NCBI RefSeq assembly: GCF_000331225.1 | Contig: NZ_ANFY01000010.1 | Coordinates: 1-64,000, forward strand | Length of the DNA: 64,000 nucleotides | Direction: 5' to 3' | From: Sandarakinorhabdus sp. AAP62 | Lineage (GTDB): Bacteria; Pseudomonadota; Alphaproteobacteria; Sphingomonadales; Sphingomonadaceae | Part shown: one piece after another, positions 5,705-60,761 of the stretch | Layout: every line of letters starts with the position of its first letter | How positions within the stretch are numbered: position 1 is the first letter of the stretch | Program-made: the position numbers and the translations under genes | The notes under the pieces: generated by a model | The model's database searches: none | What the model saw: only the letters and a program-made list of their open reading frames with translations | What the model was told of the DNA's origin: nothing

Positions 5705-5828
5705 GCCTCCGGCGGCCAGGGGCTGAGCCCCTGGACCCGCTTTCGTTGGTGCGTGCCCCATGACGAACATTGGGCATGGAGGCCGGAAAAACAAATGGGT
5801 GCAGGCCTCAGGCCTGCCCGCCGGAGGC
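5705..5828. repeat. Cloverleaf inverted-repeat element, copy A
   Basis: Outer inverted repeat GCCTCCGGCGG/CCGCCGGAGGC is perfect. Inside lie a left hairpin CCAGGGGC-TGA-GCCCCTGG (5716-5734), a central arm beginning ACCCGCTTTCG and closing AACAAATGGGT, and a right hairpin GCAGGCC-TCA-GGCCTGC. The central tip is short and of the same type as copy B. Relative to copies C-F the element is inverted (the CTTTCG side is on the left). It lies between two converging genes. Confidence 0.85.
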
Positions 5829-5887
5829 TATTCCTCCCTGCTTCTTCACCGTGCCAATCGAAGTCAGCAAACAATCCCAAACCCGCT

Positions 5888-5947
5888 CATGCCGAGCTTG
5901 TCGAGGCACGCACCGCGGTCGATCGGTGCCTCGACAAGCTCGGCATG
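5888..5947. repeat. Complete GAGCTTGTCGAG-type palindromic repeat
   Basis: Two perfect 22-base arms (5888-5909 and 5926-5947) around a 16-base centre. The arm core GAGCTTGTCGAGGCAC is a common type of short extragenic palindrome in sphingomonad-like genomes. A half copy is present at 105-126. Confidence 0.85.
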
Positions 5948-6006
5948 GGCGGCTTCGTCGTTTTGGGAAGCGCGACAAGAGCTGGCGCGGCCTTCGCGGC
6001 CGGCGC

Positions 6007-6405
6007 TCACTGTTCGCGAAAACCGCCCTTCGGTGCCGGCAGGCCCATCTCCGCGATCATGGCGGGCGTCACCTTGTCCTTGTACTTGTTGCCGAAATTG
6101 CTGCGGACATAGTTGATGACGTCGGCAATCTGCTGGTCGGTCAACAAGCCCCGGAACCAGGGCATGGCGTTCTTGCCGCCGGTCACCACCATGATCGGAT
6201 AGCCGGCCGCTTCCAGCGCGCCATTCCTTGCCAGCGCCGGGATCTTGCCGGCGCCTTCGCCGCCCAGTGCATTGGCCATGTGGCAGGCCTGACAGATATT
6301 CTGATAGACCTCGGCACCCGGATGAGGCGCCGGTGCCGGCTTGGCGGGCTTCTGGGCCAGGGCCGGGACCGCGATGAAGGCGGCAGCGAGCAGAACGAAA
6401 CGCAT
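6007..6405 (-). CDS. Periplasmic class I c-type cytochrome, partner of the amine oxidase
   Basis: A 132-residue protein with a cleavable signal peptide (MRFVLLAAAFIAVPALA) and one heme-binding CQACH motif (about 38-42). A downstream Met in NAMPWF is the likely sixth ligand. It starts 3 bases after the stop of the Tat-exported flavin amine oxidase on the same strand, so the two are co-transcribed. In Pseudomonas putida S16 a small cytochrome c (CycN) accepts electrons from the related enzyme NicA2; the same role is inferred here. Confidence 0.9.
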   Translation of the reverse strand: MRFVLLAAAFIAVPALAQKPAKPAPAPHPGAEVYQNICQACHMANALGGEGAGKIPALARNGALEAAGYPIMVVTGGKNAMPWFRGLLTDQQIADVINYVRSNFGNKYKDKVTPAMIAEMGLPAPKGGFREQ

Positions 6406-6408
6406 TGA

Positions 6409-8001
6409 TCAGGCCTCCAGGGCGCGGCTGTGCAGGCGGGTGACGGCATCGAGCGACGACAGGATCGCGCCTTCCATCCAGCAGCCAACATAGGACGCAT
6501 GTTCGCCAGCCAGCACCAGCCGGTTATCGACGGCAACCAGCGTCTGATAATGTTCCTTGCGGGTTTCCTCGTTCCACATGGCGCAGCAGCCCAGCGTGAA
6601 GGGCACCCGGCTCCACGCCACGGTGGCGCCGCCGATATATTCTTCCTTGTAGCGGCCGGGGTGGAACACGCTGCCCTGCTCCAAGGCGCGCGCGATGCGC
6701 TCTTCGGGTGTCATGCCGGCGAACTTGTAGCTGGCCGGGCCGAACGTATAGGCGCCCAGAATCACCGCCGGCCCATCGCTGTGCAGCTTGCCGGACGGAT
6801 AGGAGATCATGTTGATCTCCCGATCGGTGAAGCTGATGCCGCCATAGATGGCCTCTTCCTCTTCCCAGAAGCGCCGCTTGAATTCCAGGCCGACCTTCAC
6901 GCTATTGGAGTAGGGGATGGCGTGGATCGCTGCATCGAGGCCGGGTGAGCAATCGACATCGATCTGGCTGAGCACCGACAGTGGGATGGTGCACACGCAA
7001 TAATCGGCTTCGGTGGTGCTGGTCACGCCGGTGCCGGTATCCTTGTGCGTCACCGTTACCTTGCCGCCCTGCTGGCTGATGCTGGTGACCTTCTGGTTGT
7101 AACGGATCTTGCCTTCGACCTGTTTGGCAAAGCCGCGCCCGATCATGCCCATGCCGCCCACCGGCTGGAACATCGAATGCTGGTGATCGATGTTCATGTG
7201 CTGGGCCACGGTACGCCAGATGCCGGAATCGAGGATATCCTTGAAGGCATGGGGATCGGACGGGATGGGTTCACCCAGCACACCGCCGCCCTGCGCGCGT
7301 TCAAAGCCGCGCCGGCGCGAGGCCCGGTAGTTCTTAGTATATTTGAAATCCTGATCCAGCGCGCCCCATTCGCGCAGCGCCATGCGCAGGCGGTCGCCGT
7401 CTTCCTTGGTCATCACCGAATCGAGGCCGCGATTGTCGATCGCCTTTGACAGCAGCTCGGCCACGTTCCCGTCCCAATCGGCGTGCAGCTCGCGATAGCG
7501 CATCGGCTTGCCACCGAACGCCTCGGACGAATGCACCAGCGCCTGCTGGTTCATCTGGATGAAGGGCTCCAGCGCAACGCCGAACTTCTTGCAATAATGC
7601 AGCAGGGCGCGGTGGTGATAGGGAATGCGCCATGGGCCGGGATTGAGATAATTGCCGGGCGCAAAGCCGACCTTCTGGGTGGCGCCGCCCAGTTCGGTAT
7701 AGGTGTCGCCGCCATAGAGCGACCAGTTCCGGCCACCGGGGCGGTTGTTGTATTCGAGGATCTGCACCTCATAACCGGCCTTGGCCAGTTCATAGGCCGC
7801 CAGCATGCCGGCCAGGCCCGCCCCCAGCACCACGACCTTGGTACCCGGCCGTGCGCCTTGGAGGTTGGGCGGCCCGGCAAATTGGGTTTCCTTGGCGTGG
7901 CCAAGGACTTCCATCGCCTGGTAAAGCACGGCGGTGCCCGCCATCATGCCGATAGCGCGCAAGACTTCGCGGCGCGTCGGACCGGATTCAGCCCAGTTCA
8001 T
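6409..8001 (-). CDS. Tat-exported flavin-dependent amine oxidase/dehydrogenase
   Basis: A 530-residue flavoprotein of the monoamine oxidase superfamily. The N-terminus has a twin-arginine signal (TRREVLRAIGMMAGTAVL), then the FAD-binding Rossmann motif VVVLGAGLAGMLAAYELAKAG (about 56-76) and GGRNW; the C-terminal FAD motif is LVLAGEHASYVGCWMEGAILS. Substrate residues cannot be assigned. The adjacent cytochrome c gene suggests that electrons go to cytochrome c rather than O2, so it may be a dehydrogenase. AAGGGGAAG lies ahead of the ATG. The substrate (polyamine, aromatic amine or other) is unknown. Confidence 0.9.
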   Translation of the reverse strand: MNWAESGPTRREVLRAIGMMAGTAVLYQAMEVLGHAKETQFAGPPNLQGARPGTKVVVLGAGLAGMLAAYELAKAGYEVQILEYNNRPGGRNWSLYGGDTYTELGGATQKVGFAPGNYLNPGPWRIPYHHRALLHYCKKFGVALEPFIQMNQQALVHSSEAFGGKPMRYRELHADWDGNVAELLSKAIDNRGLDSVMTKEDGDRLRMALREWGALDQDFKYTKNYRASRRRGFERAQGGGVLGEPIPSDPHAFKDILDSGIWRTVAQHMNIDHQHSMFQPVGGMGMIGRGFAKQVEGKIRYNQKVTSISQQGGKVTVTHKDTGTGVTSTTEADYCVCTIPLSVLSQIDVDCSPGLDAAIHAIPYSNSVKVGLEFKRRFWEEEEAIYGGISFTDREINMISYPSGKLHSDGPAVILGAYTFGPASYKFAGMTPEERIARALEQGSVFHPGRYKEEYIGGATVAWSRVPFTLGCCAMWNEETRKEHYQTLVAVDNRLVLAGEHASYVGCWMEGAILSSLDAVTRLHSRALEA

Positions 8002-8171
8002 TGGAGCGTACTTCCCCTTTGCCTGTCATCGGCGGCAACTCTGGCAGGCGAATGGCCCGCTGGCCAGAGCCGGCAATGATCGGACGTTCCGATGCGCCCT
8101 CATCCGCCGGCCGGATAGTGGTGAAATAGCGGGGATTTCCCCCATTTGCGGCCCCAGCGCGCAAGCTGGCC

Positions 8172-9674
8172 TCAATAATCCGATCCGCCAAACTCGCTTT
8201 CGGCGCGGTCGGCGAATTTGGTGTACTGCTTTATGAAGGTCAGCGGCACCGTGCCGGTGGCGCCGTGGCGCTGCTTGGCGATGATCACTTCGGCCAGGCC
8301 AAAGATTTTTTCGGCCTTTTCCCGCCACTTCATGTGCTTGTCCGCCTCTTCGGGATCGGGCTGTTTCAGGCTGTGATAATATTCCTCGCGGTAGACGAAC
8401 ATCACGATGTCCGAATCCTGCTCGATGGTGCCGGATTCGCGCAGATCGGCGAGCTGCGGCCGTTTGTCCTCACGATTCTCGACCGCGCGGGACAGCTGTG
8501 ACAGCGCGATCACCGGCACCTGCAGTTCCTTGGCCAGCGTCTTCAGGCCGCGGGTGATCTCGGAAATTTCCTGCACGCGGTTGTCACCGCCGCTGTTCTT
8601 GGAACCGGTGAGCAGCTGGAGATAGTCGACCACGATCAGCCCGATGCCGTGCTGGCGCTTGAGCCGGCGAGCGCGGGTGCGTAGCGCCGCGATCGACAGC
8701 CCAGGCGTGTCGTCGATCCACAGTGGCAGGGCAGCCAGCTCGCTGGAGGCGCGGGCCAGTCGGGTGAAATCCTCATTAGAAATCTTGCCCATCCTGAGCG
8801 ATTCGCCGTTCACTTCCGATTGTTCGGCCAGGATGCGGGTGGCGAGTTGGTCAGCCGACATTTCCAGGCTGAAAAACGCCACTGGGGCGCCCGAGGACTT
8901 CTCCGCCTCGATGCCGCGGGCCCGGTCCTGCGCGAACCGCTGGGCGCAGGCAAAGGCGATGTTGGTGGCAAGGCTGGTCTTGCCCATGGCCGGGCGGCCG
9001 GCGAGGATGAGCAAGTCGGACTTGTGCAGGCCGCCCATCTTTTCATTCAGGCCGGTGAGGCCCGTCGTGTAGCCCGACAGATGCCCGCCCGAACGCTTGG
9101 CGCGGTCGGCCTGGGCCACGGCTTCCATCGCGGCCTCGCGGAAGGTCTTGACCGCGCCTTGCACTTCGCCGGCTTCGGCAACCTTGTAGAGCGCCATTTC
9201 GGCCGCTTCGATCTGGGTGATCGGTGCGATGTCCTTGCTGGTGTCGCTGGCTTCCGTCACCATCTCGCGGCCGACGCGGATCAGTTCGCGCAGCAGGGCC
9301 AGATCATAGATTTGCTGGGCAAAATCGCGCGCCGCCAGCAGCGCTGCGCCATTCTGGGTGAGGCTGGCGAGATAGCCGGGACCGCCCAGTTCGGCGATGG
9401 CCGGATCGGCTTCGAACATGGGCTTGAGCGTCACCGGAGTCGCCGCCATGCCCTTGGCCGACAGGGTGAGCACCGCGGCATAGATGCGGCCGTGCAGTGG
9501 ATCGGCGAAATGCTCGGTCTTCAGCTTGGTGATGACATCTTCCACCAGCCGATTGTCGATCATCAGCGCGCCGAGCAGGGCGGCTTCGGCCTCCAGATTC
9601 TGCGGCAGGGTCGCGCTCGCCGGGCCGCCTTCGAGAACGCGAAACGGGGTGACTGAAGGAGGAAGGCTGGCCAT
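8172..9674 (-). CDS. dnaB: Replicative DNA helicase
   Basis: Hexameric helicase that unwinds DNA at the replication fork. The N-terminal DnaG-binding domain (LPQNLEAEAALLGALMIDN) is followed by the RecA-like core with Walker A AGRPAMGKTS, Walker B LIVVDYLQLL, and ALSQLSRAVE..RPQLADLRESGTIEQDSD. The 500-residue product starting at ATG 9674 matches the family; the frame continues upstream to 9938 but that part is low-complexity and overlaps the nusB start. It is divergent from nusB, with 145 bases between. Confidence 0.97.
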   Translation of the reverse strand: MASLPPSVTPFRVLEGGPASATLPQNLEAEAALLGALMIDNRLVEDVITKLKTEHFADPLHGRIYAAVLTLSAKGMAATPVTLKPMFEADPAIAELGGPGYLASLTQNGAALLAARDFAQQIYDLALLRELIRVGREMVTEASDTSKDIAPITQIEAAEMALYKVAEAGEVQGAVKTFREAAMEAVAQADRAKRSGGHLSGYTTGLTGLNEKMGGLHKSDLLILAGRPAMGKTSLATNIAFACAQRFAQDRARGIEAEKSSGAPVAFFSLEMSADQLATRILAEQSEVNGESLRMGKISNEDFTRLARASSELAALPLWIDDTPGLSIAALRTRARRLKRQHGIGLIVVDYLQLLTGSKNSGGDNRVQEISEITRGLKTLAKELQVPVIALSQLSRAVENREDKRPQLADLRESGTIEQDSDIVMFVYREEYYHSLKQPDPEEADKHMKWREKAEKIFGLAEVIIAKQRHGATGTVPLTFIKQYTKFADRAESEFGGSDY

Positions 9675-9819
9675 GGCTGCGTCATCGCGCAAGCCTGCGG
9701 CAATGCCAAGGCTCACGCCAAAATTTCGCGGTGGGCAGGCCTGTGGACAAGCCGGGGACAGCAGGGGGACAAGTCGAGCCGCTTGCCGGGGCCTCCCACA
9801 ATCGCGTAAGGCCGCCGCG

Positions 9820-10272
9820 GTGAGCAACATTCCTGATTTTCGTGGCCGTTCGGCCGCCCGCCTCGCTGCCGTGCAGGCGCTGTACCAGCTGGAGATGCGC
9901 GGCGAGACCGTGCCAAAGCTGCTGACCGAGTTCCACAAGCACCGGCTGGGCCAGGAAATCGAAGGTGCCGAATATCTCGCTGCCGATGAACCCTTCTTCG
10001 ATGATGTGGTGGCCGGCGTCGCGGCCCGTCAGGCCGAGCTGGACGAACTGATCTCCAGTGGTCTCGCCGAAGGTTGGACGCTGAACCGGCTCGACCGGCC
10101 GATGCGGGCGCTGCTGCGCGCGGCGCTTTACGAACTGGTGGCGCGGGCGGATGTGTCGGCAGCGACCGTGATCAATGAATATGTGGATGTCGCCCACGCC
10201 TTCCATGACGAGAAGGAAGCCAGGTTCGTCAACGGCCTGCTCGATGCGCTGGCGCGCCGGGTGCGCGGCTGA
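9820..10272 (+). CDS. nusB: Transcription antitermination factor NusB
   Basis: All-helical 150-residue protein that binds boxA RNA with NusE (S10) during rRNA transcription. It shows RSAARLAAVQALYQLEM at the N-terminus and the typical C-terminal EYVDVAHAFHDEKEARFVNGLLDALAR. The GTG at 9820 is taken as the start because conservation begins at SNIPDFRGRSAAR and a TAAGG lies 5 bases upstream; the open frame extends much further but antisense to dnaB. thiL starts 5 bases later, so the two are an operon; nusB-thiL adjacency is common in proteobacteria. Confidence 0.95.
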   Translation: MSNIPDFRGRSAARLAAVQALYQLEMRGETVPKLLTEFHKHRLGQEIEGAEYLAADEPFFDDVVAGVAARQAELDELISSGLAEGWTLNRLDRPMRALLRAALYELVARADVSAATVINEYVDVAHAFHDEKEARFVNGLLDALARRVRG

Positions 10273-10277
10273 CGCGG

Positions 10278-11210
10278 ATGGCGGAGCGGGACTTCATCGC
10301 CCGCCTGGCAGCGACCCTGGCCACATCACCGGCCGCGCGCGCTTTTGCCGACGATGCGGCGGTGTGGACCCCGCCGCTGGGCCGCAATCTCGTCTTCACC
10401 CACGATGTGCTGGCCGCCGGCGTGCATTATCTGCCGGACGATCCGCCATCGGATGTGGCGTGGAAACTGCTGGCGGTGAACCTGTCTGATCTGGCCGCGA
10501 TGGCGGCCACCCCGGCCGGCGTGCTGCTGGGGCTGGGCCTGTCGGCGGCTGAAGATGCGGCGTGGCGCGACGCCTTCATCGCCGGCCTGGCGCGGGCGCT
10601 CGCTCATTTCGGCGTCGAACTGTGGGGCGGCGACACGGTGAGCGGGCTGGGCCAGGCCGTGCTCGGCCTGACCGCCATTGGCTGGGTTGAACCGGGCCGG
10701 GCGCTCGGCCGCAAGGGGGCGCAGCCGGGCGACGCCGTGTGGGTTTCGGGCACGATCGGCGATGCCGGGCTGGGCCTGGCTGTGGCCAAAGGTGACGCGC
10801 CGTTCGACAAGCCGCTGCTCAACCGCTTCCGCCGCCCGACACCGCGCCTTGCGCTGGGGGCCGTGCTGGGCGGCCATGCGTCGGCCGGAATGGATGTGTC
10901 GGATGGATTGCTGATCGATGCGGACCGGCTGGCCGCCGCCAGCGGTGTGGCGCTGCACATTGATCTGGCGCAGGTGCCGCTCTCCCGTCCGGCTGCCGGC
11001 CTGGAAGACGTGCTGGCGCGGACGACGGCGGGCGATGATTATGAGTTGCTGTTCACGGCGCCGGCCGATGTCGATGTGGCAGCGCTGGCGGCGCCCTCCA
11101 GAACGCCGGTAACCCGCATCGGCAGGGTGACCGCGGGTTCCGGTGTGATGCTCAGCCTTGCCGGCCAGCCGGTGCCACTCCCCGCCCGGCTGGGCTGGGA
11201 ACACGGCTGA
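10278..11210 (+). CDS. thiL: Thiamine-monophosphate kinase
   Basis: Phosphorylates thiamine monophosphate to the diphosphate cofactor. The 310 residues contain the ATP/Mg segment FADDAAVWTPP, VFTHDVLAAGVHYLPD, LAVNLSDLAAMAATP and GMDVSDGLLIDADRLA, all hallmarks of the PurM/ThiL fold. Its ATG is 5 bases after nusB. A cloverleaf element (copy B) lies 38 bases downstream, in the convergent gap with the aminotransferase gene. Confidence 0.95.
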   Translation: MAERDFIARLAATLATSPAARAFADDAAVWTPPLGRNLVFTHDVLAAGVHYLPDDPPSDVAWKLLAVNLSDLAAMAATPAGVLLGLGLSAAEDAAWRDAFIAGLARALAHFGVELWGGDTVSGLGQAVLGLTAIGWVEPGRALGRKGAQPGDAVWVSGTIGDAGLGLAVAKGDAPFDKPLLNRFRRPTPRLALGAVLGGHASAGMDVSDGLLIDADRLAAASGVALHIDLAQVPLSRPAAGLEDVLARTTAGDDYELLFTAPADVDVAALAAPSRTPVTRIGRVTAGSGVMLSLAGQPVPLPARLGWEHG

Positions 11211-11248: not shown

Positions 11249-11370
11249 GCCTCCGGCGGCCAGGGGCTGAGCCCCTGGGCCCACTTTTGATGGCGCGCCC
11301 CATGACGAAATTTGGGCATGAAGGGCGGACAAACAAATGGGTGCAGGCCTCAGGCCTGCCCGCCGGAGGC
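11249..11370. repeat. Cloverleaf inverted-repeat element, copy B
   Basis: Same design and orientation as copy A. Outer arms are perfect (11249-11259 and 11360-11370), left hairpin CCAGGGGC-TGA-GCCCCTGG, right hairpin GCAGGCC-TCA-GGCCTGC, and a short centre around cccatgacgaaatttgggcatg. It lies between the converging thiL and class V aminotransferase genes. Confidence 0.85.
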
Positions 11371-21391: not shown

Positions 21392-21624
21392 GCCTCCGGC
21401 GGGCAGGGTCGCAGACCCTGCACCCGTTTGTTTTCGGGCGTCCCCCAACCAACAACACTTGTCATGCTGGCGCAGGCCAGCATCCATCGTGTCGTCGCGC
21501 GCAAGAGCCGAAATCCCGGCACCACCGTGGATGCTGGCCTGCGCCAGCATGACGACCCAATTTGAACAGGAGCCGTCCAAAATCGAAAGCGGGTGCAGGG
21601 GCTCAGCCCCTGCCCGCCGGAGGC
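21392..21624. repeat. Cloverleaf inverted-repeat element, copy C, with nested hairpin
   Basis: Outer arms pair over 17 bases (GCCTCCGGCGGGCAGGG). Left hairpin GCAGGGTC-GCA-GACCCTGC, right hairpin GCAGGGGC-TCA-GCCCCTGC, central stem ACCCGTTT/AAAGCGGGT. The tip holds a second palindrome with perfect 26-base arms (21461-21486 and 21528-21553; core GCTGGCGCAGGCCAGC), also present in copy D. The element fills almost the whole 240-base gap between the converging hslU and topA: 3 bases from one stop codon and 4 from the other. Confidence 0.9.
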
Positions 21625-49511: not shown

Positions 49512-49874
49512 GAAAAGCGGCCTCCGCACTGGCCTTCGCCAGTGTGACTGGGCAGGGTCGCAGACCCTGCACCCGTTCGATTTGGCGGATCCTTGCATTA
49601 CAAGTTGATCGTCATGCTGGCGCAGGCCAGCATCCATCGCGGCGCGCGCACTCGCTTGGTTTTCTTTGGCCCCGGACTCTCCGTGGATGCTGGCCTGCGC
49701 CAGCATGACAATGACCCAGGGGAAGCAGGACTGAAACGACGAAAGTGGGTGCAGGGCCTCAGGCCCTGCCCAGTCACACTGGCGAAGGCCAGTGCGGAGG
49801 CTCCTGCCTATTCCCTTTGCCCCTTGCCATCGCGCACCCGCCCCGCTTTGATGCCCGCAACAAGGGGACACATC
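49512..49874. other. Gap between dapD and the M20 peptidases
   Basis: 363 bases, mostly cloverleaf element copy D (49520-49801). The last 73 bases, to the ATG at 49875, hold AAGGGG as a ribosome binding site. No gene. Confidence 0.7.
49520..49801. repeat. Cloverleaf inverted-repeat element, copy D, expanded outer stem
   Basis: Largest copy. Outer arms are 38 bases and perfectly paired (49520-49557 and 49764-49801) but differ from the family: a palindrome CACTGGC-cttc-GCCAGTG plus TGACT is inserted in both arms in place of part of GGCGG. Left hairpin GCAGGGTC-GCA-GACCCTGC, right hairpin GCAGGGCC-TCA-GGCCCTGC. The tip has the nested 26-base-arm palindrome of copy C (49611-49636 and 49684-49709). 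It lies between co-oriented genes. Confidence 0.9.
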
Positions 49875-51278
49875 ATGCGCACATTCATCGCTGCACTTCT
49901 GGCCGCCACCATCGCCGTTCCGGCCGCTGCACAAGCGCTTCGGCCTGATCAGCAGGCGTTTCGCGCGCTCTACAAGGAGCTGGTGGAGACCAACACCACC
50001 GTCTCCACCGGCAGCTGCAACCTGGCGGCCGAGCGGATGGCGGCGCGATTGAAGGCGGCGGGCTATCAGGATGCGGATATCAGGCTGTTCCAAGGCTCAG
50101 CCGAACGTCCGCAGGATGGCGGCATGGTGGCCACGCTGAAAGGCAGCGACCCCAAGGCCAAGGCCATATTGCTGCTGTCCCACCTGGATGTCGTGGAGGC
50201 CAAGCGGGCGGATTGGGAGCGGGATCCGTTCACCTTCATCGAGGAAGGCGGCTTCTTCTATGGCCGCGGCGTTTCCGACGACAAGGCGCATGGCGCGATC
50301 TTCACCGATGCAATGATCCGGCTGAAGCAGGGCAAGGCGCCGAAGCGCACGGTGAAGCTGGCGTTGACCTGTGGTGAGGAAGGCGGGCCGCACAACAGCG
50401 CCAAGTGGCTGGTGGAGGAGCATCGCGACTGGATCGAGGCGGAGTTCGTCCTGAATGAAGGCGGTGGCGGCAAGGCCGACGCCACGGGCAAGCCGATCAG
50501 CCTGGCCTTTCAGGCCGGCGAGAAAGTCTACCAGGATTTCACACTCGAAACCCGCAACCCCGGTGGGCACAGCAGCCGCCCGCGGCCCGACAATGCCATC
50601 TATGAACTGGCCGCCGGGCTGGTGCGCCTGTCGCGCAATGATTTCCCGGTGATATTGTCGGACACGACGCGCGCCTATTTCGCCGAGATGGCCAAGCTGA
50701 GTGATGCGCCGACGGCAGCGGCCATCCGTGCCGTGCTGGCCAATCCGGCCGACGCGGCTGCCGAAGCCATCGTGTCGAAGGATCCGGGCTGGCACAGCAC
50801 GCTGCGCACCACCTGCGTGGCGACGATGCTGGACGCCGGCCATGCGCGGAATGCCCTGCCGCAGCGCGCCCAGGCCAATGTGAACTGCCGCATGTTCCCC
50901 GGTGAGAGCGTGGAAAAGGTGCGCGGGCAGATCGTGGAGCGGCTGGGTGACCCAACGATCACCGTCACCCCGCGTGCCAGCGAAAACCCCGAAAAGGCCG
51001 CCCCGCCGCCGCCGCTGTCGGACATGGTCTATGGCCCCGCCGTCGCGCTCGCCGCCAAACATTTCCCCGGCATCCCGCTGATCCCGACCATGTCCACCGG
51101 CGCCACCGATGGCCGCTACCTCAACGCTGCCGGCATGCCGACCTATGGCATGCCCGGCCGGTTCGGCATGCCCGACGGCAATGGCGTCCACGGCCTCAAT
51201 GAACGCATCTCGGTGGCCGGCGTGATGAAGGAACGCGATTATCTGTTCGATCTGATCACCGTCTACGCTGGCAAGTAA
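49875..51278 (+). CDS. Exported M20-family metallopeptidase, first of a tandem pair
   Basis: 467 residues, Sec signal (MRTFIAALLAATIAVPAAAQ). Zinc ligands and catalytic residues: His in LLLSHLDVVEA, Asp in GRGVSDDKAHG, the Glu pair in TCGEEGG, and the dimerisation-lid segment NPGGHSSRPRPDNAIYEL. C-terminal HGLNERI supplies the final His. Similar to carboxypeptidase G2/ArgE-like enzymes. The next gene is a paralogue 10 bases downstream of the same length. Confidence 0.9.
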   Translation: MRTFIAALLAATIAVPAAAQALRPDQQAFRALYKELVETNTTVSTGSCNLAAERMAARLKAAGYQDADIRLFQGSAERPQDGGMVATLKGSDPKAKAILLLSHLDVVEAKRADWERDPFTFIEEGGFFYGRGVSDDKAHGAIFTDAMIRLKQGKAPKRTVKLALTCGEEGGPHNSAKWLVEEHRDWIEAEFVLNEGGGGKADATGKPISLAFQAGEKVYQDFTLETRNPGGHSSRPRPDNAIYELAAGLVRLSRNDFPVILSDTTRAYFAEMAKLSDAPTAAAIRAVLANPADAAAEAIVSKDPGWHSTLRTTCVATMLDAGHARNALPQRAQANVNCRMFPGESVEKVRGQIVERLGDPTITVTPRASENPEKAAPPPPLSDMVYGPAVALAAKHFPGIPLIPTMSTGATDGRYLNAAGMPTYGMPGRFGMPDGNGVHGLNERISVAGVMKERDYLFDLITVYAGK

Positions 51279-51288
51279 GGATTCCAGG

Positions 51289-52692
51289 ATGCGCGCGCTC
51301 TTCCTCACCGCTGCCCTGCTCGCCAGCACCGCAGCCCAGGCCCAATATGTCAGCCAACAGCCCGGCGAGCCCGCGTTCCGCGCGCTGTTCAAGGAAATGG
51401 TGGAGACCGACACCAGCCTGACCACCGGCAGTTGCACGGCGGCGGCAGAAAAACTCGCCGTGCGCTTCAAGGCCGCCGGCTTCGCCGATGCCGACATCAC
51501 CCAGTTCAGCGTGCCGGAGTTTCCGAAGGAGGGCGGCATCGTCGTCCATCTGAAGGGCGCTGACCCCAAGGTGAAGCCGATGCTGCTGCTCGGCCACCTC
51601 GACGTGGTCGCCGCCAAGCCGGAAGACTGGACGCGCAGCCCGTTTAAACTGATCGAGGAAGACGGCTATTTCTATGGCCGCGGCACCTTTGACGACAAGG
51701 CGCAGGCCAGTATCTGGGCCGATCTCCTCATCCGCATGAAGGCCGGCAAGGCGCCGAAACGCACCATCAAGCTGGCGCTGACCTGCGGGGAGGAGACCAC
51801 CTACGCCTTCAACGGCGCCGATTGGCTGGCCAGGAACCGCCCGGAACTGATCATGGCGGAATTCGCGCTCAACGAAGGCGGCGGCGGCCGCAACGGCCCC
51901 GATGGCAAGCCGCAGGGCCTGGCCGTGCAGGTAGGCGAAAAGACGGTGCAGAATTTTTGGGCAGAGGCCACCAACCCCGGCGGCCACAGCAGCGTGCCCC
52001 GGCCAGACAACGCCATCACCGATCTCACCGCCGCCGTGGTCGCCGTGAACCGCCACGAATTCCCGGTGCAGTTCACCGATACCACCCGCGCCTATTTCGC
52101 CACGCTGGCCAAGGTGATGCCCGATCCAGTTGGCCCCGCCATGGCCCGCCTGCTCAGCAATCCCGATGATGCAGAGGCCAATCGCATCGTTTCGATGGAC
52201 CCCACCAATCACAGCGTGCTGCGCACCACCTGCGTCACCACCCTGCTGGAAGCCGGCCACGCCGAAAACGCCCTCGCCCAGCGCGCCCGCGCCAACGTGA
52301 ACTGCCGCATGTTCCCCGGCACCGATCCCAATGCGCTGAAGGCCGATCTGGAAAAGATCATCGCCAATCCCAAGGTGAGCATCAGCCTGAAGCCGCCGAT
52401 CCGCCCGGTCGCCAAGCCCACCCCGATGAACCCCGCCATCATCGGCCCGATGCAGACCGTCGCCGCCAAACATTTCCCCGGCGTGCCCATGCTGGCGATG
52501 ATGAGCACCGGCGCCACCGATGCCATCTTCATCACGCCCATAGGCATTCCGGTCTATGGCGCACCCGGCACGATGATCGATGCCGATGGCAACGGCATTC
52601 ACGGCCTCAATGAACGCATCAGCGTGCGCAGCCTGATGCAGGGCCGCGATTATCTCTCCGATCTGGTGGCCGTGCTCGCCAATCCCAAATAG
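51289..52692 (+). CDS. Exported M20-family metallopeptidase, second of a tandem pair
   Basis: 467 residues, paralogous to the preceding gene over its whole length, signal (MRALFLTAALLASTAAQAQ). The same site residues appear: LLGHLDVVAAK, GRGTFDDKAQ, TCGEETT, NPGGHSSVPRPDNAITDL, HGLNERI. Changes near the site (TCGEETT for TCGEEGG) suggest a different substrate range. Likely tandem duplication and divergence. Confidence 0.9.
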   Translation: MRALFLTAALLASTAAQAQYVSQQPGEPAFRALFKEMVETDTSLTTGSCTAAAEKLAVRFKAAGFADADITQFSVPEFPKEGGIVVHLKGADPKVKPMLLLGHLDVVAAKPEDWTRSPFKLIEEDGYFYGRGTFDDKAQASIWADLLIRMKAGKAPKRTIKLALTCGEETTYAFNGADWLARNRPELIMAEFALNEGGGGRNGPDGKPQGLAVQVGEKTVQNFWAEATNPGGHSSVPRPDNAITDLTAAVVAVNRHEFPVQFTDTTRAYFATLAKVMPDPVGPAMARLLSNPDDAEANRIVSMDPTNHSVLRTTCVTTLLEAGHAENALAQRARANVNCRMFPGTDPNALKADLEKIIANPKVSISLKPPIRPVAKPTPMNPAIIGPMQTVAAKHFPGVPMLAMMSTGATDAIFITPIGIPVYGAPGTMIDADGNGIHGLNERISVRSLMQGRDYLSDLVAVLANPK

Positions 52693-54826: not shown

Positions 54827-56131
54827 ATGACCGCCACCATCGCGGCGCTGGCCAGCGGCCGTCCGCCGGCAGCGCTCGCCGTCATCCGCCTGTCTGGCCC
54901 GGCCGCCCTTGCCGCCGTGCAAGCCCTGGCTGGCCGCATCCCGCCACCGCGCCGCCTCAGCCTGTGCCGGCTCCACGCCGGCGATACACTGCTCGATGAA
55001 GCCCTCGTCGTCATCTTCCCCGGCCCCAACAGCGCCAGCGGGGAAGACCTGGCCGAATTCCACCTGCACGGCGGCGCCGCCGTCGTTTCCGGCGTGCTCG
55101 CCGCCCTCACTGCCCTGCCCGGTGTGCGCCTCGCGGAACCCGGCGAATATACCCGCCGCGCCTTCGCCAATGGCCGCATGGATCTGGCGCAAGTCGAAGG
55201 CCTCGCCGATCTCGTCAGCGCCGAAACCGCCAGCCAACGCGATCAGGCCCTCGCCCTTGCCGGCGGCGCCCTCGGCCGCCTGGCTGATCAGTGGCGCGAA
55301 CGCTGCCTGATGCTGCTGGCCGAAGCCGAAGCCGGCCTCGATTTCGCCGAAGACGAAGCAGATGTCGCCGAACGCCTCGATGAAGCCGCTCGCCACCAAT
55401 TGTTCGCCATGGCCGAGGAGCTGGCCGGCCTGATCGCCGATTCCGCCCGCGCCGCACGTATTCGTGAAGGCCTCTCCATCGCCGTCACAGGGCCGCCAAA
55501 CGTGGGAAAGTCCAGCTTGGTCAATGCCTTATCCATGCGTGACGCTGCCATCGTCACCCCCATCGCCGGCACCACCCGCGACGCAATCGAAGTCCCTGTG
55601 GATCTTGGCGGTATCGCCGCGGTCCTCATCGATACCGCCGGTCTGCGCGACACCACCGACCCAATCGAGGCAGAAGGCATTGCCCGCGCCCGCCGCCGCG
55701 CCGCCGCCGCCGATCTCGTCATCAGCGTCGCCAGCGCCGACGCGCCCGCTTGGCCCACGCCCCCCGCCAACGGCCCGCCCCACCTCCAGCTGCTCAACAA
55801 ATGTGACCTCGGCCAGCCCGAACTGCCACAAGCTACCCTCGCGGTCTCCGCCACCACCGGTGCCGGCATGGCCGCCCTGCGTGACTGGCTCGCCGCCTGG
55901 GCCCACACCACCACCCGCCCCGGCGAGCCCGCACTCCTGGCCCACGCCCGCCACCGCGCCGCCTTCGCCGACGCACAAACCGCCCTGCGCGACGCCGCCG
56001 ACGCCCCTGAACCCGTCCTGCGCGCCGAGTCCCTCCGCGCGGCCGCCCACGCCTTCGGCCGCATCGCGGGACGGATCGGCGTGGACGACGTGCTGGACCG
56101 CATATTCAGCCGCTTCTGCATCGGGAAGTAG
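54827..56131 (+). CDS. mnmE: tRNA uridine-5-carboxymethylaminomethyl(34) synthesis GTPase MnmE
   Basis: With MnmG modifies U34 in tRNAs. 434 residues: N-terminal tetrahydrofolate-binding domain (TIAALASGRPPAALAVIRLSGP), a helical domain with the G domain inserted (G1 GPPNVGKSS, G2 TPIAGTTRD, G3 DTAGLRD, G4 NKCD) and the C-terminal catalytic Cys motif FSRFCIGK. mnmG follows after repeats and a parS site. Confidence 0.97.
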   Translation: MTATIAALASGRPPAALAVIRLSGPAALAAVQALAGRIPPPRRLSLCRLHAGDTLLDEALVVIFPGPNSASGEDLAEFHLHGGAAVVSGVLAALTALPGVRLAEPGEYTRRAFANGRMDLAQVEGLADLVSAETASQRDQALALAGGALGRLADQWRERCLMLLAEAEAGLDFAEDEADVAERLDEAARHQLFAMAEELAGLIADSARAARIREGLSIAVTGPPNVGKSSLVNALSMRDAAIVTPIAGTTRDAIEVPVDLGGIAAVLIDTAGLRDTTDPIEAEGIARARRRAAAADLVISVASADAPAWPTPPANGPPHLQLLNKCDLGQPELPQATLAVSATTGAGMAALRDWLAAWAHTTTRPGEPALLAHARHRAAFADAQTALRDAADAPEPVLRAESLRAAAHAFGRIAGRIGVDDVLDRIFSRFCIGK

Positions 56132-56134
56132 TTT

Positions 56135-56188
56135 CCCTCTCCCCTTGCGGGAGAGGGTCGACTCGCCGCAGGCGAGCGGGGTGAGGGG
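56135..56188. repeat. CTCTCCC-type intergenic repeat, copy 2
   Basis: CCCTCTCCC/GGGAGAGGG (56135-56143 and 56149-56157), then tcgactcgccgcaggcgagcggggtgagggg. Matches copy 1 at 53391 with a different second stem (CGCCGCAGGCG, compared with cacagccg). Confidence 0.75.
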
Positions 56189-56213
56189 TTGTTGAAGTTG
56201 ATGATTGAAGAAT

Positions 56214-56390
56214 GCCTCCGGCGGGCAGGGACTCTGTCCCTGCACCCATTTGTTTTCGTGCGCGCTTTGCGTGAAGCGCGCTCATCGGCGCCGCAGGCAA
56301 TGAAAAGTGCCTGCGGCGCTGCCTTTCGAACCTGAAGCACCGCCTCAAACGAAAGTGGGTGCAGGGGCTCAGCCCCTGACCGCCGGAGGT
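56214..56390. repeat. Cloverleaf inverted-repeat element, copy E
   Basis: Outer stem GCCTCCGGCGG/CCGCCGGAGG(T). Left hairpin GCAGGGAC-TCT-GTCCCTGC, right hairpin GCAGGGGC-TCA-GCCCCTG. Central stem ACCCATTT/AAAGTGGGT, where A-T replaces the G-C of copy C. The tip carries two hairpins: GCGCGCTT/AAGCGCGC (56260-56281) and GCGCCGCAGGCA/TGCCTGCGGCGC (56288-56319); the latter is also in copy F. Confidence 0.85.
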
Positions 56391-56410
56391 ATCCTTCTCT
56401 CCTGCTCGAA

Positions 56411-56426
56411 TGTTTCACGTGAAACA
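56411..56426. other. parS centromere site 1
   Basis: TGTTTCACGTGAAACA, a perfect 16-bp palindrome that matches the chromosomal ParB-binding consensus exactly. It lies at the 5' end of mnmG and overlaps a possible ATG at 56410. It would nucleate ParB spreading and anchor origin segregation with the parAB genes 2.5 kb downstream. Confidence 0.95.
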
Positions 56427-56442
56427 TCACCAACGAATCGCT

Positions 56443-58299
56443 ATGGACAACCCCATGCACGATTACGACGTCATCATCGTCGGCGCCGGCCACGCCGGTT
56501 GCGAGGCAGCCGCAGCCGCTGCCAGGCGCGGCGCGCGTGTGGCGTTGGTCACGCTGCGCGCCGATGATCCCGGCACGTTGAGCTGCAACCCGGCGGTGGG
56601 TGGCATCGGCAAGGGCCACCTGGTCACCGAGATTGATGCGCTGGGCGGCATCATGGGGCGGGTGACAGATGCGGCTCGCTTGCAGTCGCGCTTGCTCAAT
56701 CGCTCCAAGGGCCCGGCCGTCCACGGCCCACGCGCGCAGGTGGATCGTGCGCTGTATCGCACGGCGATGGCCGAGGTGCTGGCCACGTTCCCGACCCTGT
56801 CTGTCATTGCCACTGCTGTGGAGGGGCTGGTTCTGGAGCAGGGCCGCATCACGGGTGTCGAGACCGCACACGGCCGATTGAATGCGCCGGCCGTGGTGTT
56901 GACCACCGGCACCTTCCTGGGTGGCATGATGCACATTGGCAGCCAGCGCGAAGCCGGTGGCCGGGTTGGCGCGCAAGCGAGCGATCTTGGCGCGGCGCTG
57001 CGGGCGATGGGCTTGCCGGTGAGCCGCCTTAAGACGGGCACTCCGGCCCGGCTGGATGGCCGCAGCATCGATTGGGCGGTGCTGGACTGGCAGCATGGCG
57101 ATGCCGATGATCCGCGCTTCAGCCGATTTGGCAAGGCCAATGGCCGGCCGCCGATCCCCTGTGCCGTGACACGGACCAATGCCGAGACGCATCGCATCAT
57201 CCGTGATCACCTGGGCGAATCGGCCTTGTATGGGGGCCATATCGATTCGGTCGGCCCGCGTTATTGCCCGTCGATCGAGGACAAGGTGGTGCGCTTTGGC
57301 GATCGTGACGGCCACCAGATTTTCCTGGAGCCGGAGGGTTATGATGACATCACCATCTATCCCAACGGCCTTTCGACGTCGCTGCCGCTACATGTGCAGG
57401 AAAAGTTCATCGCCTCGATCAAGGGACTTGAGCGCGCCCGCATTCTGCGCGCCGGCTATGCCATTGAGTATGATCATGTCGATCCCCGCGCTTTGACGCC
57501 GGGCCTGGCCGCCAAGGATGTGCCGGGCCTGTTCCTGGCGGGCCAGATCAACGGCACTACTGGCTATGAGGAAGCCGCCGCACAGGGCCTTGTGGCCGGC
57601 GCCAACGCAGCGGCGACTGCGCTTGGCCTGCCCGCGCTCAACGTTGACCGCACTTCTGCCTATATCGGCGTGATGATCGACGATCTCACCACGCACGGTG
57701 TGGCTGAGCCCTATCGCATGTTCACCAGCCGCGCCGAGTATCGCCTGCGGTTACGGGCCGACAATGCCGATCAGCGGTTGACACCGCTGGGCCTTGATCT
57801 CGGCCTCATCCCCGCCGCGCAAGCTGCTGACTTCGCAAACCAACAGGCCTCGCGCGAGGCCGCCCGCGCCCTGCTCGACAAATTATCGGCCACACCGCAT
57901 CAACTGGCCAACCACGGTATCGAAGTTCGTCAGGACGGCCAATTGCGTTCCCTGTTCGACTGGCTGCGCTTTCCGGCTGTCAGCCACGAGGCGGCTCGCC
58001 GCGTCTGGCCGGAACTGGCGCAAGTGCCCGATGATCTGCTCGCCAGCCTTGCTGTGGATGCCAACTACGCCGCGTACATTGCCCGGCAGGAAGCCGAAGT
58101 CGCCGCCTTGCGCCGGGACGAAGGGCTGACATTGCCCGCCGATCTTGACTACGCGGCTGTGGCGGGACTTTCCAGGGAGATGACCGAGCGCCTCAGCCGT
58201 GCCCGTCCTCTCACCCTCGGCGCCGCCAGTCGCGTGCCGGGCATCACACCCGCCGCCTTGATCGCCCTGCTCCCATACACCACCCGCAGGGCCGCCTGA
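56443..58299 (+). CDS. mnmG: tRNA uridine-5-carboxymethylaminomethyl(34) synthesis enzyme MnmG
   Basis: FAD enzyme that works with MnmE. 618 residues from ATG 56443. FAD motif [39 protein letters not shown], and the family segments [63 protein letters not shown]. The start could also be ATG 56410 inside parS (adds [11 protein letters not shown]) or 56455 (MHDYDV); no clear ribosome binding site decides this. rsmG follows after 1 base. Confidence 0.95.
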
Positions 58300-58300
58300 G

Positions 58301-58921
58301 ATGAGCGATGATGCCCGCGCCGCCTTTGCGGGCGAGTTTGATGTTTCACGTGAAACATTGGCCAAGCTTGATCGCTATGCCGAGCTGCTCACCGAATGGC
58401 AGCAGCGCATGAACCTGGTCGGCCCGTCCACCCTACCGCATATCTGGGATCGGCATTTCCGTGATTCGGCGCAACTGCTGGCCATTGCTGGCACTGGCAA
58501 GTCATGGCTCGATATTGGCGCCGGTGGCGGCTTCCCTGGCCTGGTGCTCGCGATCCTTGATCCTCAATCCAACATCACGCTCGTGGAATCCATCACGAAG
58601 AAATGCCGCTTTCTGGACACGGTGGCCCACGAAACGGACACCGTCGGCCACGTGACAATTGCCAATGTCCGCGTCGAGACACTGGCCGGCAGCAAATTCG
58701 ACATCATCACGGCCCGCGCCGCCGCCAGCCTGGAAACGTTGTTCGATTGGGGCCTGCGCTTTGCCGGCAGCGGTACACGCTGGATCCTGCCAAAGGGTGC
58801 CCGGGTGCAGGAAGAGCTTGCCAGCGCCGCCAACCGGTTCCACTTTGCCCACCAGCTGATTCCCAGCCGCACCGATTCCGATGCCCGTATCGTGGTCGCA
58901 ACAGGGGTGAAACGCCGATGA
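58301..58921 (+). CDS. rsmG: 16S rRNA (guanine(527)-N7)-methyltransferase RsmG
   Basis: Methylates G527 of 16S rRNA with S-adenosylmethionine. 206 residues: LTEWQQRMNLVGPSTLPHIWDRHFRDS, the SAM motif WLDIGAGGGFPGLVLAI, ESITKKCRFLDTVA, and ITARAAASLETLFDW. Its codons for DVSRETL contain parS site 2, an unusual fixed sequence within coding DNA. The stop overlaps parA by 4 bases. Confidence 0.95.
   Translation: MSDDARAAFAGEFDVSRETLAKLDRYAELLTEWQQRMNLVGPSTLPHIWDRHFRDSAQLLAIAGTGKSWLDIGAGGGFPGLVLAILDPQSNITLVESITKKCRFLDTVAHETDTVGHVTIANVRVETLAGSKFDIITARAAASLETLFDWGLRFAGSGTRWILPKGARVQEELASAANRFHFAHQLIPSRTDSDARIVVATGVKRR
58342..58357. other. parS centromere site 2, inside rsmG
   Basis: A second perfect TGTTTCACGTGAAACA, 1.93 kb from the first, lying inside the rsmG reading frame (codons for VSRET). 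The two sites flank mnmG and precede parAB. Confidence 0.95.
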
Positions 58922-59694
58922 TCATCGCGGTCGCCAACCAGAAAGGCGGAGTCGGCAAGACTACCACGGCGGTGAACCTCGCCACGGCCCTGGCCGCCAT
59001 CGGCAAGCGCGTGCTGGTGGTGGACAGTGACCCACAGGGCAATGCCTCCACCGGTTTCGGCGTTGGTCGCAAGGATCGCGACCCGTCCATCTATCAGGTG
59101 CTGGTCGATGGCGTGCCCGCCGCCGACGCTGTGCGCGATACGGTCATCCCTGGCCTTTCCATCCTGCCCGCCACCCCGGCCCTCGCCGGCGCAGAAGTCG
59201 AACTGGTGGATGCCGATCGTCGATCCAACCGGCTGGCGGATGCCCTCGCCAGCCTGCCGGCCTTCGACTTTGTGCTGATCGATTGCCCGCCCTCGCTCGG
59301 CCTGATCACGGTCAACGCACTGGTCGCCGCCGATGCCGTGCTGGTGCCACTGCAGAGCGAATTCTTTGCCCTGGAAGGCCTGAGCCAGCTGCTTGGCACC
59401 ATCGAACGGGTCAAGGCCGGGCTCAACCGCCGGCTCGAACTGCTCGGGATCGTGCTGACCATGGTCGATCGCCGCAATCGCCTGTCTGATCAGGTTTGCG
59501 CCGATGTGCGAGCCGTGATGGGCGCCAAGGTATTGAAAACACAGGTCCCGCGTAATGTCCGCCTGTCGGAAGCGCCCAGCCACGGCCTGCCGGCTCTGAT
59601 CTACGACAGCCGCTGCGCCGGCTCCGAAGCCTATCTGGCGCTGGCCCGTGAGCTCCTGGACCGATTGGATACCCCGCTGGTCGTGGCCAACTGA
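58918..59694 (+). CDS. parA: Chromosome partitioning ATPase ParA
   Basis: 258 residues, deviant Walker A KGGVGKTT (MIIAVANQKGGVGKTTTAVNL), Walker A' DSDPQGNAS and Walker B FVLIDCPPSLG. It forms ATP-dependent dimers on DNA that move ParB-parS complexes. ATG 58918 overlaps the rsmG stop; parB follows after 8 bases. Confidence 0.97.
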   Translation: MIIAVANQKGGVGKTTTAVNLATALAAIGKRVLVVDSDPQGNASTGFGVGRKDRDPSIYQVLVDGVPAADAVRDTVIPGLSILPATPALAGAEVELVDADRRSNRLADALASLPAFDFVLIDCPPSLGLITVNALVAADAVLVPLQSEFFALEGLSQLLGTIERVKAGLNRRLELLGIVLTMVDRRNRLSDQVCADVRAVMGAKVLKTQVPRNVRLSEAPSHGLPALIYDSRCAGSEAYLALARELLDRLDTPLVVAN

Positions 59695-59702
59695 CGAGAG
59701 AG

Positions 59703-60575
59703 ATGATGACCGACACGAAGCGCAAATCCGGTCTTGGCCGCGGGCTTTCGGCCTTGCTCGACGACATTGCGGCGCCACCCACCGCCACTGCACCTGGCGT
59801 TGTCCGCCTGCCCGTCGCCGACATCGTGCCCAACCCCGGCCAGCCGCGCCGCCAGTTCGACGAAACGGCGATGGCGGAACTCGTGGCCTCGGTGAAAGCC
59901 CATGGCGTGCTGCAGCCGATCCTCGTGCGCCCCCATGAAGGCCGTCACCAGATCATTGCCGGTGAACGCCGCTGGCGCGCCGCACAGGCTGCCGGGCTGC
60001 ATGAAATCCCCGTGGTGCTCCGCCGGCTGGATGATCGGCAAGTCTCTGAAATCGCGCTGATCGAGAATATCCAGCGCGCCGATCTCAACGCCATCGAAGA
60101 AGCGCGCGGCTACCAGAAGCTCATCGCCGATTTCGGTCATACCCAGGCCGCGCTCGCCGAAATCGTCGGCAAGTCGCGCAGCCATGTCACCAACCTGCTG
60201 CGCCTGCTCGATCTGCCGGCCACGGTGCAGACGCTGGTGGAATCAGGCGCCCTCTCCATGGGCCACGCCCGGGCGCTGGTTGGGGTGGCCAATGCCGAAG
60301 CGTTGGCCGAACGCGCTGTAAAACAAGGTCTTTCGGTCCGCGCCCTCGAAGCCCTCGTCGCCGGCGGCAAGGCCAAACCGAAATCCAACCGCACCGCACC
60401 AACACCCGCGGCCAACGATCCCAACAGCGACGCGCTTGAAGAGCAACTCGCCGAAGCCCTCGGAATGCCGGTTGCCCTGCAGGTCGCCCCCGGTGCCAGC
60501 AGCGGCAGCCTGACCATCCGCTTTGCCGACCTCGATCAACTCGACATGTTGTGCAGCAAGCTGGGCGTGGCTTGA
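59703..60575 (+). CDS. parB: Chromosome partitioning protein ParB
   Basis: 290 residues: N-terminal CTPase/box region (ADIVPNPGQPRRQFDE, GVLQPILVRPHEGRHQIIAGERRWRAAQAAG, IENIQRADLNAIEEARGYQKLI), central helix-turn-helix (TQAALAEIVGKSRSHVTNLLRLLDLP) and C-terminal dimer domain. Binds the parS sites at 56411 and 58342. A second ATG at 59706 is equally possible. Cloverleaf copy F begins 15 bases after the stop. Confidence 0.97.
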   Translation: MMTDTKRKSGLGRGLSALLDDIAAPPTATAPGVVRLPVADIVPNPGQPRRQFDETAMAELVASVKAHGVLQPILVRPHEGRHQIIAGERRWRAAQAAGLHEIPVVLRRLDDRQVSEIALIENIQRADLNAIEEARGYQKLIADFGHTQAALAEIVGKSRSHVTNLLRLLDLPATVQTLVESGALSMGHARALVGVANAEALAERAVKQGLSVRALEALVAGGKAKPKSNRTAPTPAANDPNSDALEEQLAEALGMPVALQVAPGASSGSLTIRFADLDQLDMLCSKLGVA

Positions 60576-60590
60576 GGCATCAAGAGAACT

Positions 60591-60760
60591 GCCTCCGGCG
60601 GGCAGGGTCGCGGACCCTGCACCCGTTTGTTTTCGGGCAGCCCATCACACAAGGGACAGCGCCGCAGGCAATGTGAACTTGCCTGCGGCGCTTTCCTTGA
60701 TTTCACGCTCAAGGCAAATTCGAAAGTGGGTGCAGGGCCTCAGCCCCTGCCCGCGGCGGG
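60591..60760. repeat. Cloverleaf inverted-repeat element, copy F
   Basis: Left arm GCCTCCGGCGGGCAGGG is intact; the right outer arm is degraded (ccctgcccgcggcggg). Left hairpin GCAGGGTC-GCG-GACCCTGC, right hairpin GCAGGGCCTCAGCCCCTGC. The tip hairpin GCGCCGCAGGCA/TGCCTGCGGCGC (60659-60691) is shared with copy E. It fills most of the 196-base gap between the converging parB and holA. Confidence 0.85.
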
Positions 60761-60761
60761 T

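Follow-up and report, generated by a model that had tools for sequence, protein, structure and literature searches.

What are the hairpin-bearing repeats that recur between genes of Sandarakinorhabdus sp. AAP62, and to which class of genetic element do they belong? The stretch of DNA that raises this question (contig NZ_ANFY01000010.1, positions 1 to 64,000; 64,000 nucleotides (nt), hereafter the window) carries six intergenic elements, designated e1 to e6, which a preliminary description had presented as a family of cloverleaf-shaped units. In the current study it was found that the conserved unit is each half of such an element, that halves occur as inverted pairs at the 3' ends of genes, and that the DNA enclosed between them differs among related genomes and in some cases comprises whole genes. 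At slightly better than even confidence, we favour the explanation that these are exchangeable gene cassettes bounded by hairpin termini which double as gene-3'-end elements, and which are moved in trans or by recombination.

The conserved half-unit and its inverted pairing

All six stretches were read directly and aligned, and a covariance model (R1) placed 12 halves in the window, corresponding to the six elements and none beyond them, thereby confirming the elements as real. Their features are as follows, the label CGTC-type for the repetitive extragenic palindrome (REP) dimers reflecting a resemblance by eye to the CGTC families of PMC3733652.

e1, 5705..5828: 124 bp, member of an 8-member short class, located after malate synthase A
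e1 halves, 5705-5750 (+) and 5785-5828 (-): matches of the R1 covariance model
e2, 11249..11370: 122 bp, in one class with e1, flanked by thiL and an aminotransferase V gene
e3, 21392..21624: 233 bp, between hslU and topA, with the stop codons 3 and 4 nt off
e3 left half, 21392..21439, + strand: T-type example with GCCTCCGGCGG, hairpin GCAGGGTC-GCA-GACCCTGC, ACCC and T-rich tract
e3 right half, 21577..21624, - strand: S-type example with GGCTGAGCC core and CTTTCG tail
e3 REP dimer, 21461..21553: CGTC-type, units 21461-21486 (+) and 21528-21553 (-)
e4, 49520..49801: 282 bp, after dapD, with 38-bp perfect arms and an identical hairpin inserted in each
e4 REP dimer, 49611..49709: CGTC-type
e5, 56214..56390: 177 bp, between mnmE and mnmG
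e5 hairpin module, 56288..56319: GCGCCGCAGGC
e6, 60591..60799: 209 bp, between parB and holA, its right arm interrupted by an inserted hairpin
e6 hairpin module, 60659..60691: GCGCCGCAGGC

Alignment of 46 halves (alignment A3, from loci L001-L030 and the window, with the exclusion of four real halves that were decayed or had split arms and of one false match) resolved each half into approximately 18 nt of purine-rich sequence, the tag GCCTCCGGCGG, an 8-bp hairpin of the form GCAGGG(N)C nnn G(N')CCCTGC, ACCC and a T-rich tract. The A/G tract lies outside the halves and declines to background by about position -20 (88 flanks of 44 elements), while the tail following ACCC is 51% T compared to 17% window-wide. 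Hairpin cells are paired in 98.1% of cases, as opposed to 27-44% in slid registers. The covariation score was matched by none of 500 shuffles, in a test for which the half structure had been derived from the same sequences and in which only the inner pairs (18/24 and 19/23) are free, since the search pattern fixed most hairpin bases; pair 18/24 exhibits compensatory change (UA 16, GC 14, AU 10, CG 5, other 1). Among 30 distinct long elements (selected by a strict pattern among contigs of Sandarakinorhabdus and Polymorphobacter and among sphingomonad metagenome-assembled genomes (MAGs), two being labelled Novosphingobium and Oxalobacteraceae), identity between left and right falls to chance approximately 50 nt from the outer end, which together with the purine tract gives inverted termini of ~65-70 nt.

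Several details of the preliminary description required adjustment. Exact GCCTCCGGCGG/CCGCCGGAGGC arms occur on both sides of three of the six elements (e1, e2 and e3), for which the shared outer arms stand as described, while those of e4, e5 and e6 deviate. The arms of e4 read GCCTCCG/CGGAGGC and are both split by the same CACTGGCCTTCGCCAGTG hairpin, thus forming the 38-bp perfect inverted arms; the right arm of e5 ends GGT; and a CATCGAAAC..GTTTCGATG hairpin interrupts the right arm of e6, with the consequence that this element begins at 60591 as stated but ends at 60799 rather than 60760. The inner hairpins do possess 3-nt loops, while their stems, given as 6-8 bp, measure 8 bp (7 bp in the right halves of e1 and e2, with one mismatch in that of e6), and the central ACCC..GGGT arm is present throughout except in the left half of e2, which reads GCCC. 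The identical hairpin insertion in both outer arms of e4 (49520-49557 and 49764-49801) looks as though one arm were a copy of the other, made for example through template switching in an extruded hairpin. A module similar to the e6 hairpin (60760-60799) follows a hairpin arm on S. oryzae contig L221 (5539).

Folding of e1 (as DNA), e3 (as RNA) and e6 (60591-60760, as RNA) gave z scores of -6.5, -12.5 and -7.1 relative to shuffles, and for each of the three none of 200 shuffles was equally stable. Two of these foldings were rods and one was a cloverleaf, and the cloverleaf was abandoned as the conserved unit, given that the halves may stand up to kilobases apart around a gene and that their types are not associated: when assigned by hand, after inspection, to classes T and S, the left and right half types of an element showed no significant association (Fisher p = 0.18, odds ratio 3). 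A left-right hairpin rod was likewise rejected as the conserved state, S and T being mixed in 14 of the 36 elements in which both halves were typed. T/T ends are present in 22 of 30 long (gene-bearing) elements compared to 8 of 47 short ones (p = 1e-6), a post hoc comparison which excluded one short element of unclear type and employed a 450-bp cut that was also set by hand after inspection.

Beyond the window, the core pattern (at most one mismatch) matched the genome 66 times as against zero matches for the pattern read backwards, and R1 returned 125 halves in the 3.13 Mb AAP62 genome at E <= 0.01, their scores being high by construction since the model was built from halves of this genome (at most 150 candidates were scored per genome). 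Halves were furthermore detected in 24 of 24 genomes of the genus (AAP62 included) at E <= 1e-4 (range 1 to 114), and the occurrence of similar copies at many sites supports the earlier proposal of a mobile or structural element. In AAP62 there are 38 tight inverted pairs with a span of 114-302 bp and ten further inward pairs across 0.7-2.3 kb, each with different open reading frames (all ten translated). There are 49 inward-facing pairs within 3 kb, whereas 2000 random orientations gave a mean of 15.8 (sd 3.1, max 26). The pair at C3:96533-99281 appears to have a second pair, 97408-97641, nested within it. The short interiors comprise a 20-member BLAST-linked class, the 8-member class that includes e1 and e2 (e2 is 89% identical to e1 over 90 nt, right half included), the pair e5/e6 and eight singletons; REP-dimer arms occur in 18 elements, in which the halves and REP are conserved and the spacers are near random.

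Three contig ends of this draft assembly (C6:163812, C14:1 and C22:19383) fall within halves or a few bases away from them, and more gene-bearing elements may therefore hide at assembly breaks. Another repeat family, GCTTGTCGAGGCAC, lies outside the elements (window 113-126, 5896-5909 and 5926-5939) and, by eye, once inside one (C7:325035-325286).

Orthologous sites, gene ends and cargo

The hslU-topA site was inspected in 14 genomes, in eight of which the two genes lie near each other on one contig. An element is present in seven of these eight, with five kinds of interior, as listed here.

AAP62 (e3): REP dimer, 233 bp
G006: GCGCCGC hairpin, 177 bp
G004, G020 and G010: short spacer, 118 bp
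G019: PEP-CTERM gene, 1613 bp
G018: KAP NTPase gene, 1778 bp, with an additional gene between element and topA
G021: no element; an ordinary GC hairpin followed by CCTTCATTTC

The remaining six genomes have hslU and topA apart or on separate contigs, and no convincing half was observed in the stretches examined, which for G002, G003 and G009 were confined to the hslU side.

A second site, C7:346400-353500 of AAP62, consists of gene A, an element carrying a serine hydrolase gene, an amidase gene (a name assigned by eye, as is that of the peptidase beside the G018 cassette), a short element and gene B. G006 and G007 retain both elements and the amidase with other interiors, G001 has a single element with another interior, and G019 has one half together with a relative, 71% identical, of a G006 cargo protein that is found in these two of the 24 genus genomes and is absent from the rest. 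The site is empty in G004 and G020, where the stop codons overlap; G010, G018 and G021 carry small genes (seen by eye) and no halves, and G014 could not be traced across the site. BLAST identity between AAP62 and G006 stops 48-55 nt inside the outer ends, and that between AAP62 and G007 32-80 nt inside them. The purine-rich flanks are present or absent together with the element (AAP62 compared to G004). Interiors thus differ at orthologous sites within ends that are kept, and identity ends close to the inner edge of each half; this would suggest that the interiors were exchanged for one another and not independently gained and lost.

Among the other window sites, e5 and e6 are absent in G021; in G004 and G010, e6 is present while its GCGCCGC module is absent, and e4 has a short interior and an extra gene beside it. 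The e4 site of G021 holds a lone right half, and for e1 and e2 no position could be assigned within the stretches of relatives examined.

Concerning gene ends, four of the six window elements do indeed lie between converging genes, as had been described: e1 (malate synthase A and, 0.6 kb on, an amine oxidase gene, with a 132-aa same-strand frame between), e2 (thiL and the aminotransferase V gene), e3 (hslU and topA) and e6 (parB and holA). The neighbours of e4 (dapD and an M20 peptidase gene) and of e5 (mnmE and mnmG) are co-directional. Codon scoring of 47 elements, eight of which were uncalled on a side, yielded 39 with both neighbours called, comprising 25 convergent, 13 co-directional and one divergent arrangement; at least one gene ends into the element at 38 of these 39 sites, and stop codons are often 1-45 nt from it. 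The hallmarks of an intrinsic terminator are present, namely a GC hairpin, a T-rich tail after the 4-nt ACCC and a position at gene 3' ends. This location and the T-rich tails, together with the ordinary hairpin that lies at the topA site in G021, make it likely that the halves terminate transcription as bidirectional 3' ends, thereby lending support to a function that had been proposed for the elements. For the other roles proposed, a supercoil insulator or a site for nucleoid proteins, no evidence emerged in an analysis that included no test aimed at them.

The window positions 50108-52673 contain two tandem paralogous genes, ~73-79% identical in blocks, the first being an M20 peptidase gene. 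Two parS-like TGTTTCACGTGAAACA sites, one of them where the mnmG frame begins, lie at 56411-56426 and 58342-58357; the mnmE-mnmG-parA-parB-holA region in which they occur is probably near the replication origin.

The cargo enclosed by paired halves is lower in G+C, with values of at most 0.60 in 30 of 36 distinct sphingomonad interiors (elements of at least 450 bp; range 0.43-0.65) relative to 0.657 for the window, which served as the reference in place of each host. Pfam and PADLOC searches identified a serine hydrolase, a nucleotidyltransferase, an acetyltransferase, PEP-CTERM proteins and a chaperone-usher pair, and also defence-like proteins: a DRT9 reverse transcriptase (1e-152), an MmeI-like type IIG enzyme (E 0), KAP NTPase/PDC-S20 (2e-66), PDC-M48B with a partner gene (6e-105), an Mrr enzyme and a methylase-Mrr fusion, with matches to Mrr-type (2e-28) and MTase_II (2e-55); many cargo proteins were unmatched. 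The PADLOC set encompassed 20 proteins from 16 elements, partly picked for their defence look, and 6/16 is therefore not a rate. The serine hydrolase of the C7 site is present in one of the 24 genus genomes at E <= 1e-40.

The DRT9 enzyme is cargo of S. oryzae (L190 4745-6286). Two further stretches of low G+C (0.48), L264 726-2362 and L232 2612-4324, each carry two genes lacking strong Pfam or PADLOC matches and are candidates for new defence or toxin-antitoxin systems. GGCG-type ends make up seven of the nine halves seen in G018, while the pair around its Mrr cassette is GTCGCAGAC, a type common in S. oryzae (10/23), as if, on these small numbers, the cassette had arrived with its own ends.

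Outside the genus, the matches listed for the half pattern included Desulfoluna and other Desulfobacterota, Oscillibacter and other Clostridia, an Acetobacteraceae MAG, Asticcacaulis and a few others. Inward pairs occur at loci from several of these lineages, a few of them enclosing single genes; Desulfoluna pairs are mostly 220-470 bp apart, with 19 '-+' versus 18 '+-' neighbours. GCCTCCGGCGGNCA occurs at most five times in each of 248 other Pseudomonadota genomes as opposed to 97 times in AAP62, and GCCTCCGGCGGC has 403 copies in an Oscillibacter MAG (G028) versus 11 of the reversed pattern, with 0-19 copies in the other 78 genomes of that order, a few being modestly above control (12 vs 0, 14 vs 3). 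The distribution is patchy, and is open to common descent, transfer and convergence alike. At G028 loci L120, L125, L177 and L220, some inverted pairs surround single genes (DUF4830, HTH).

Weighing the explanations

As exchangeable cassettes, the elements would be units bounded by the ~65-70 nt inverted termini, positioned close after stop codons and most often between convergent genes. Each half, read inward, resembles an intrinsic terminator, such that a pair would serve as a bidirectional 3' end. The interior may consist of a short spacer, of other repeats in the form of CGTC-type REP dimers, or of a single foreign-looking gene or a few of these, and would be exchanged while the termini stay in place; whole units may also insert at new sites. 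Exchange would proceed through the termini, either by RecA recombination there, which the retention of the ends in place favours, or by an enzyme that would work on the hairpin ends in trans, which is favoured by the matched end types, the spread over many sites and the conservation of the hairpin.

A number of observations weigh against this explanation. No mobility enzyme was found in the searches performed, and no target duplication is evident, the flanks matching over 4.32 nt compared to 4.38 nt for mismatched flanks (44 elements). A search with one 56-nt half found no match among 72,556 records of plasmids and 50,697 of phages, and viral contigs yielded two pattern matches. Cargo was not found at any second, non-orthologous site (interiors compared all-against-all; two proteins searched in 24 genomes), approximately 27 of the 125 halves are without a clear partner, and the e5 module is common to AAP62, G004 and G010, so that interiors are not always different; empty sites could also result from loss at a hot spot. 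The terminator function is deduced from sequence, and when 50-64 kb were scanned for terminators by a simple procedure, 8 sites were returned versus a shuffle mean of 7.7, hence no excess. Finally, a cruder gene assignment gave no convergent excess (++ 13, +- 11, -+ 10, -- 9); it was replaced by codon scoring because it had called e3 '--' despite the verified convergence of hslU and topA.

It is possible, if doubtful, that the elements are non-autonomous transposons with hairpin-bearing terminal inverted repeats, moved in their entirety by a transposase in trans, in which case orthologous sites with different interiors would reflect repeated insertion at a hot spot. The tendency of long elements towards matched T/T ends would fit such a process, as would the existence of element-free sites, the genome-wide spread of the 8-member and 20-member interior classes and the apparent nesting on C3. 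This explanation is at odds with the absence of target duplication and of plasmid or phage matches for the half that was searched, and none of 34 sphingomonad cargo proteins, which represent part of all elements, matched a transposase or integrase family in Pfam. It moreover needs independent insertions within a few nt of the hslU stop codon in seven of eight genomes.

We regard it as improbable that the elements are plain bidirectional intrinsic terminators maintained by selection, with the enclosed genes representing ordinary intergenic gain and loss. The position at gene 3' ends, the T-rich tails, the many partnerless halves and the replacement of the element by an ordinary hairpin at topA of G021 are all in keeping with such a role; however, selection for termination would not account for inward-facing pairs far above random, for identity between species that is lost close to the inner edge of one half and regained at the other, for the match of end types in gene-bearing elements, or for cargo of lower G+C with several defence-like genes.

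A further possibility, that the elements form a REP/REPIN-type family whose movement depends on a RAYT (Y1 HUH) transposase and for which GCCTCCGGCGG would be an atypical guide, is very unlikely and for this genus largely refuted: the equal layout (a conserved tag and a variable-sequence hairpin in inverted pairs), a Y1_Tnp-like gene between such halves on Desulfobacteraceae contig L182 and at least one core-like match near 11 of 30 Y1 loci (8 genomes) speak for it, whereas the RAYT envisaged elsewhere in the AAP62 genome was not encountered (Y1 transposase, PF01797, none, with 5 of 14 control genomes positive), six of seven genus relatives have no Y1_Tnp and the one in G001 has no core-like match in its locus (L276), 19 of the 30 Y1 loci have no core-like match in the stretch examined, none of the 30 Y1 genes is, as read, enclosed by an inward-facing pair, and none of the 46 halves carries a GTAG or CGTC tag. 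Approximately 19 Y1_Tnp matches were seen in G027 (Desulfobacteraceae GLD-1), many in frames of ~310-350 aa that match the first half of the profile only.

Returning to exchangeable cassettes, a more far-reaching version may tentatively be put forward, in which these constitute a new cassette system whose hairpin termini are both terminators and docking sites for single genes, several of them for phage defence, worked by an end-recognising enzyme. Under this version, the recurrence of the ends in Desulfoluna, Oscillibacter (~400 core copies) and an Acetobacteraceae MAG would mean that the enzyme or the ends have spread across phyla. If the cassette explanation is correct, some bacteria would possess about 50 sockets with near-identical ends at gene 3' ends, able to take up foreign genes while leaving the neighbours unbroken, and these genes would include apparently complete small anti-phage systems. 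This would help to explain the arrival of scattered single-gene defence systems outside islands and prophages; the paired halves would provide a sequence handle for new defence genes, and cultured strains, S. limnophila DSM 17366 among them, would allow a search for the moving enzyme.

Relationship to known systems

The preliminary description had assigned the elements to no named family, and this stands: the window has no Rfam match at gathering thresholds, the repeat is undescribed in the literature searched on REP/RAYT and cassette systems, as judged largely from titles and abstracts, and copies occur across the genome under no described family. None of the 46 halves has GTAG (or GTGG) as a tag where the hairpin begins, nor CGTC/TGTC at the base of a stem of 8-9 bp. 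The terminal-inverted-repeat motif GGGGWSAS, which in TIRYT/TIRtron elements surrounds a Y1 gene, is present in two of the 46, and AAP62 has no Y1 gene. Integron, dif and attC readings were also rejected, on the basis of negative results for the integrase (TIGR02249 gave no hit above cut-off in AAP62 and was found in one of ten genus genomes, G001, over positions 1-257 of 315), for the XerD site and for the attC core.

RIME and other rhizobial mosaic repeats are ~100-bp double-palindrome intergenic repeats of Alphaproteobacteria, to which the present elements bear a likeness by general description. Integron cassettes are single-gene units with hairpin sites and diverse cargo; their GTTRRRY core is absent from all 46 halves and no integrase exceeded the cut-off in the AAP62 genome. 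Mobile insertion cassettes and miniature inverted-repeat transposable elements (MITEs) have terminal inverted repeats around passenger genes and no transposase; no parent insertion sequence with the present ends was found among the part of all elements whose cargo proteins were scanned, and no target duplication was evident. The dif modules (pdif) of Acinetobacter are exchangeable modules of one to a few genes with inversely oriented bounding sites, whereas in a rough test with the motif TTATGTTAA (at most two mismatches) none of the 46 halves contained an XerD-like half-site, and one half was without a plasmid match.

A likeness in layout also exists to REP, BIME and REPIN elements (PMC3733652, PMC6006769), which likewise consist of a tag and hairpin halves, arranged as inverted pairs at the 3' ends of genes, and CGTC-type REP dimers are indeed found inside many of the elements; the elements themselves carry a tag that is different and longer (GCCTCCGGCGG), occur in a genome with no RAYT and enclose gene cargo between some halves. 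In the minimal mobile elements (MME) of Neisseria, as described in PMC3898611, whole-gene cassettes, often restriction systems, vary by strain between conserved genes, and homologous recombination has been proposed (PMC3898611, citing Saunders and Snyder 2002). The hslU-topA and C7 sites resemble these in that different whole-gene cassettes lie between the same conserved genes, species rather than strains being compared here. While MME are defined by their conserved flanking genes, the cassettes described here are bounded by one dedicated inverted hairpin terminus present in ~125 copies in the genome.

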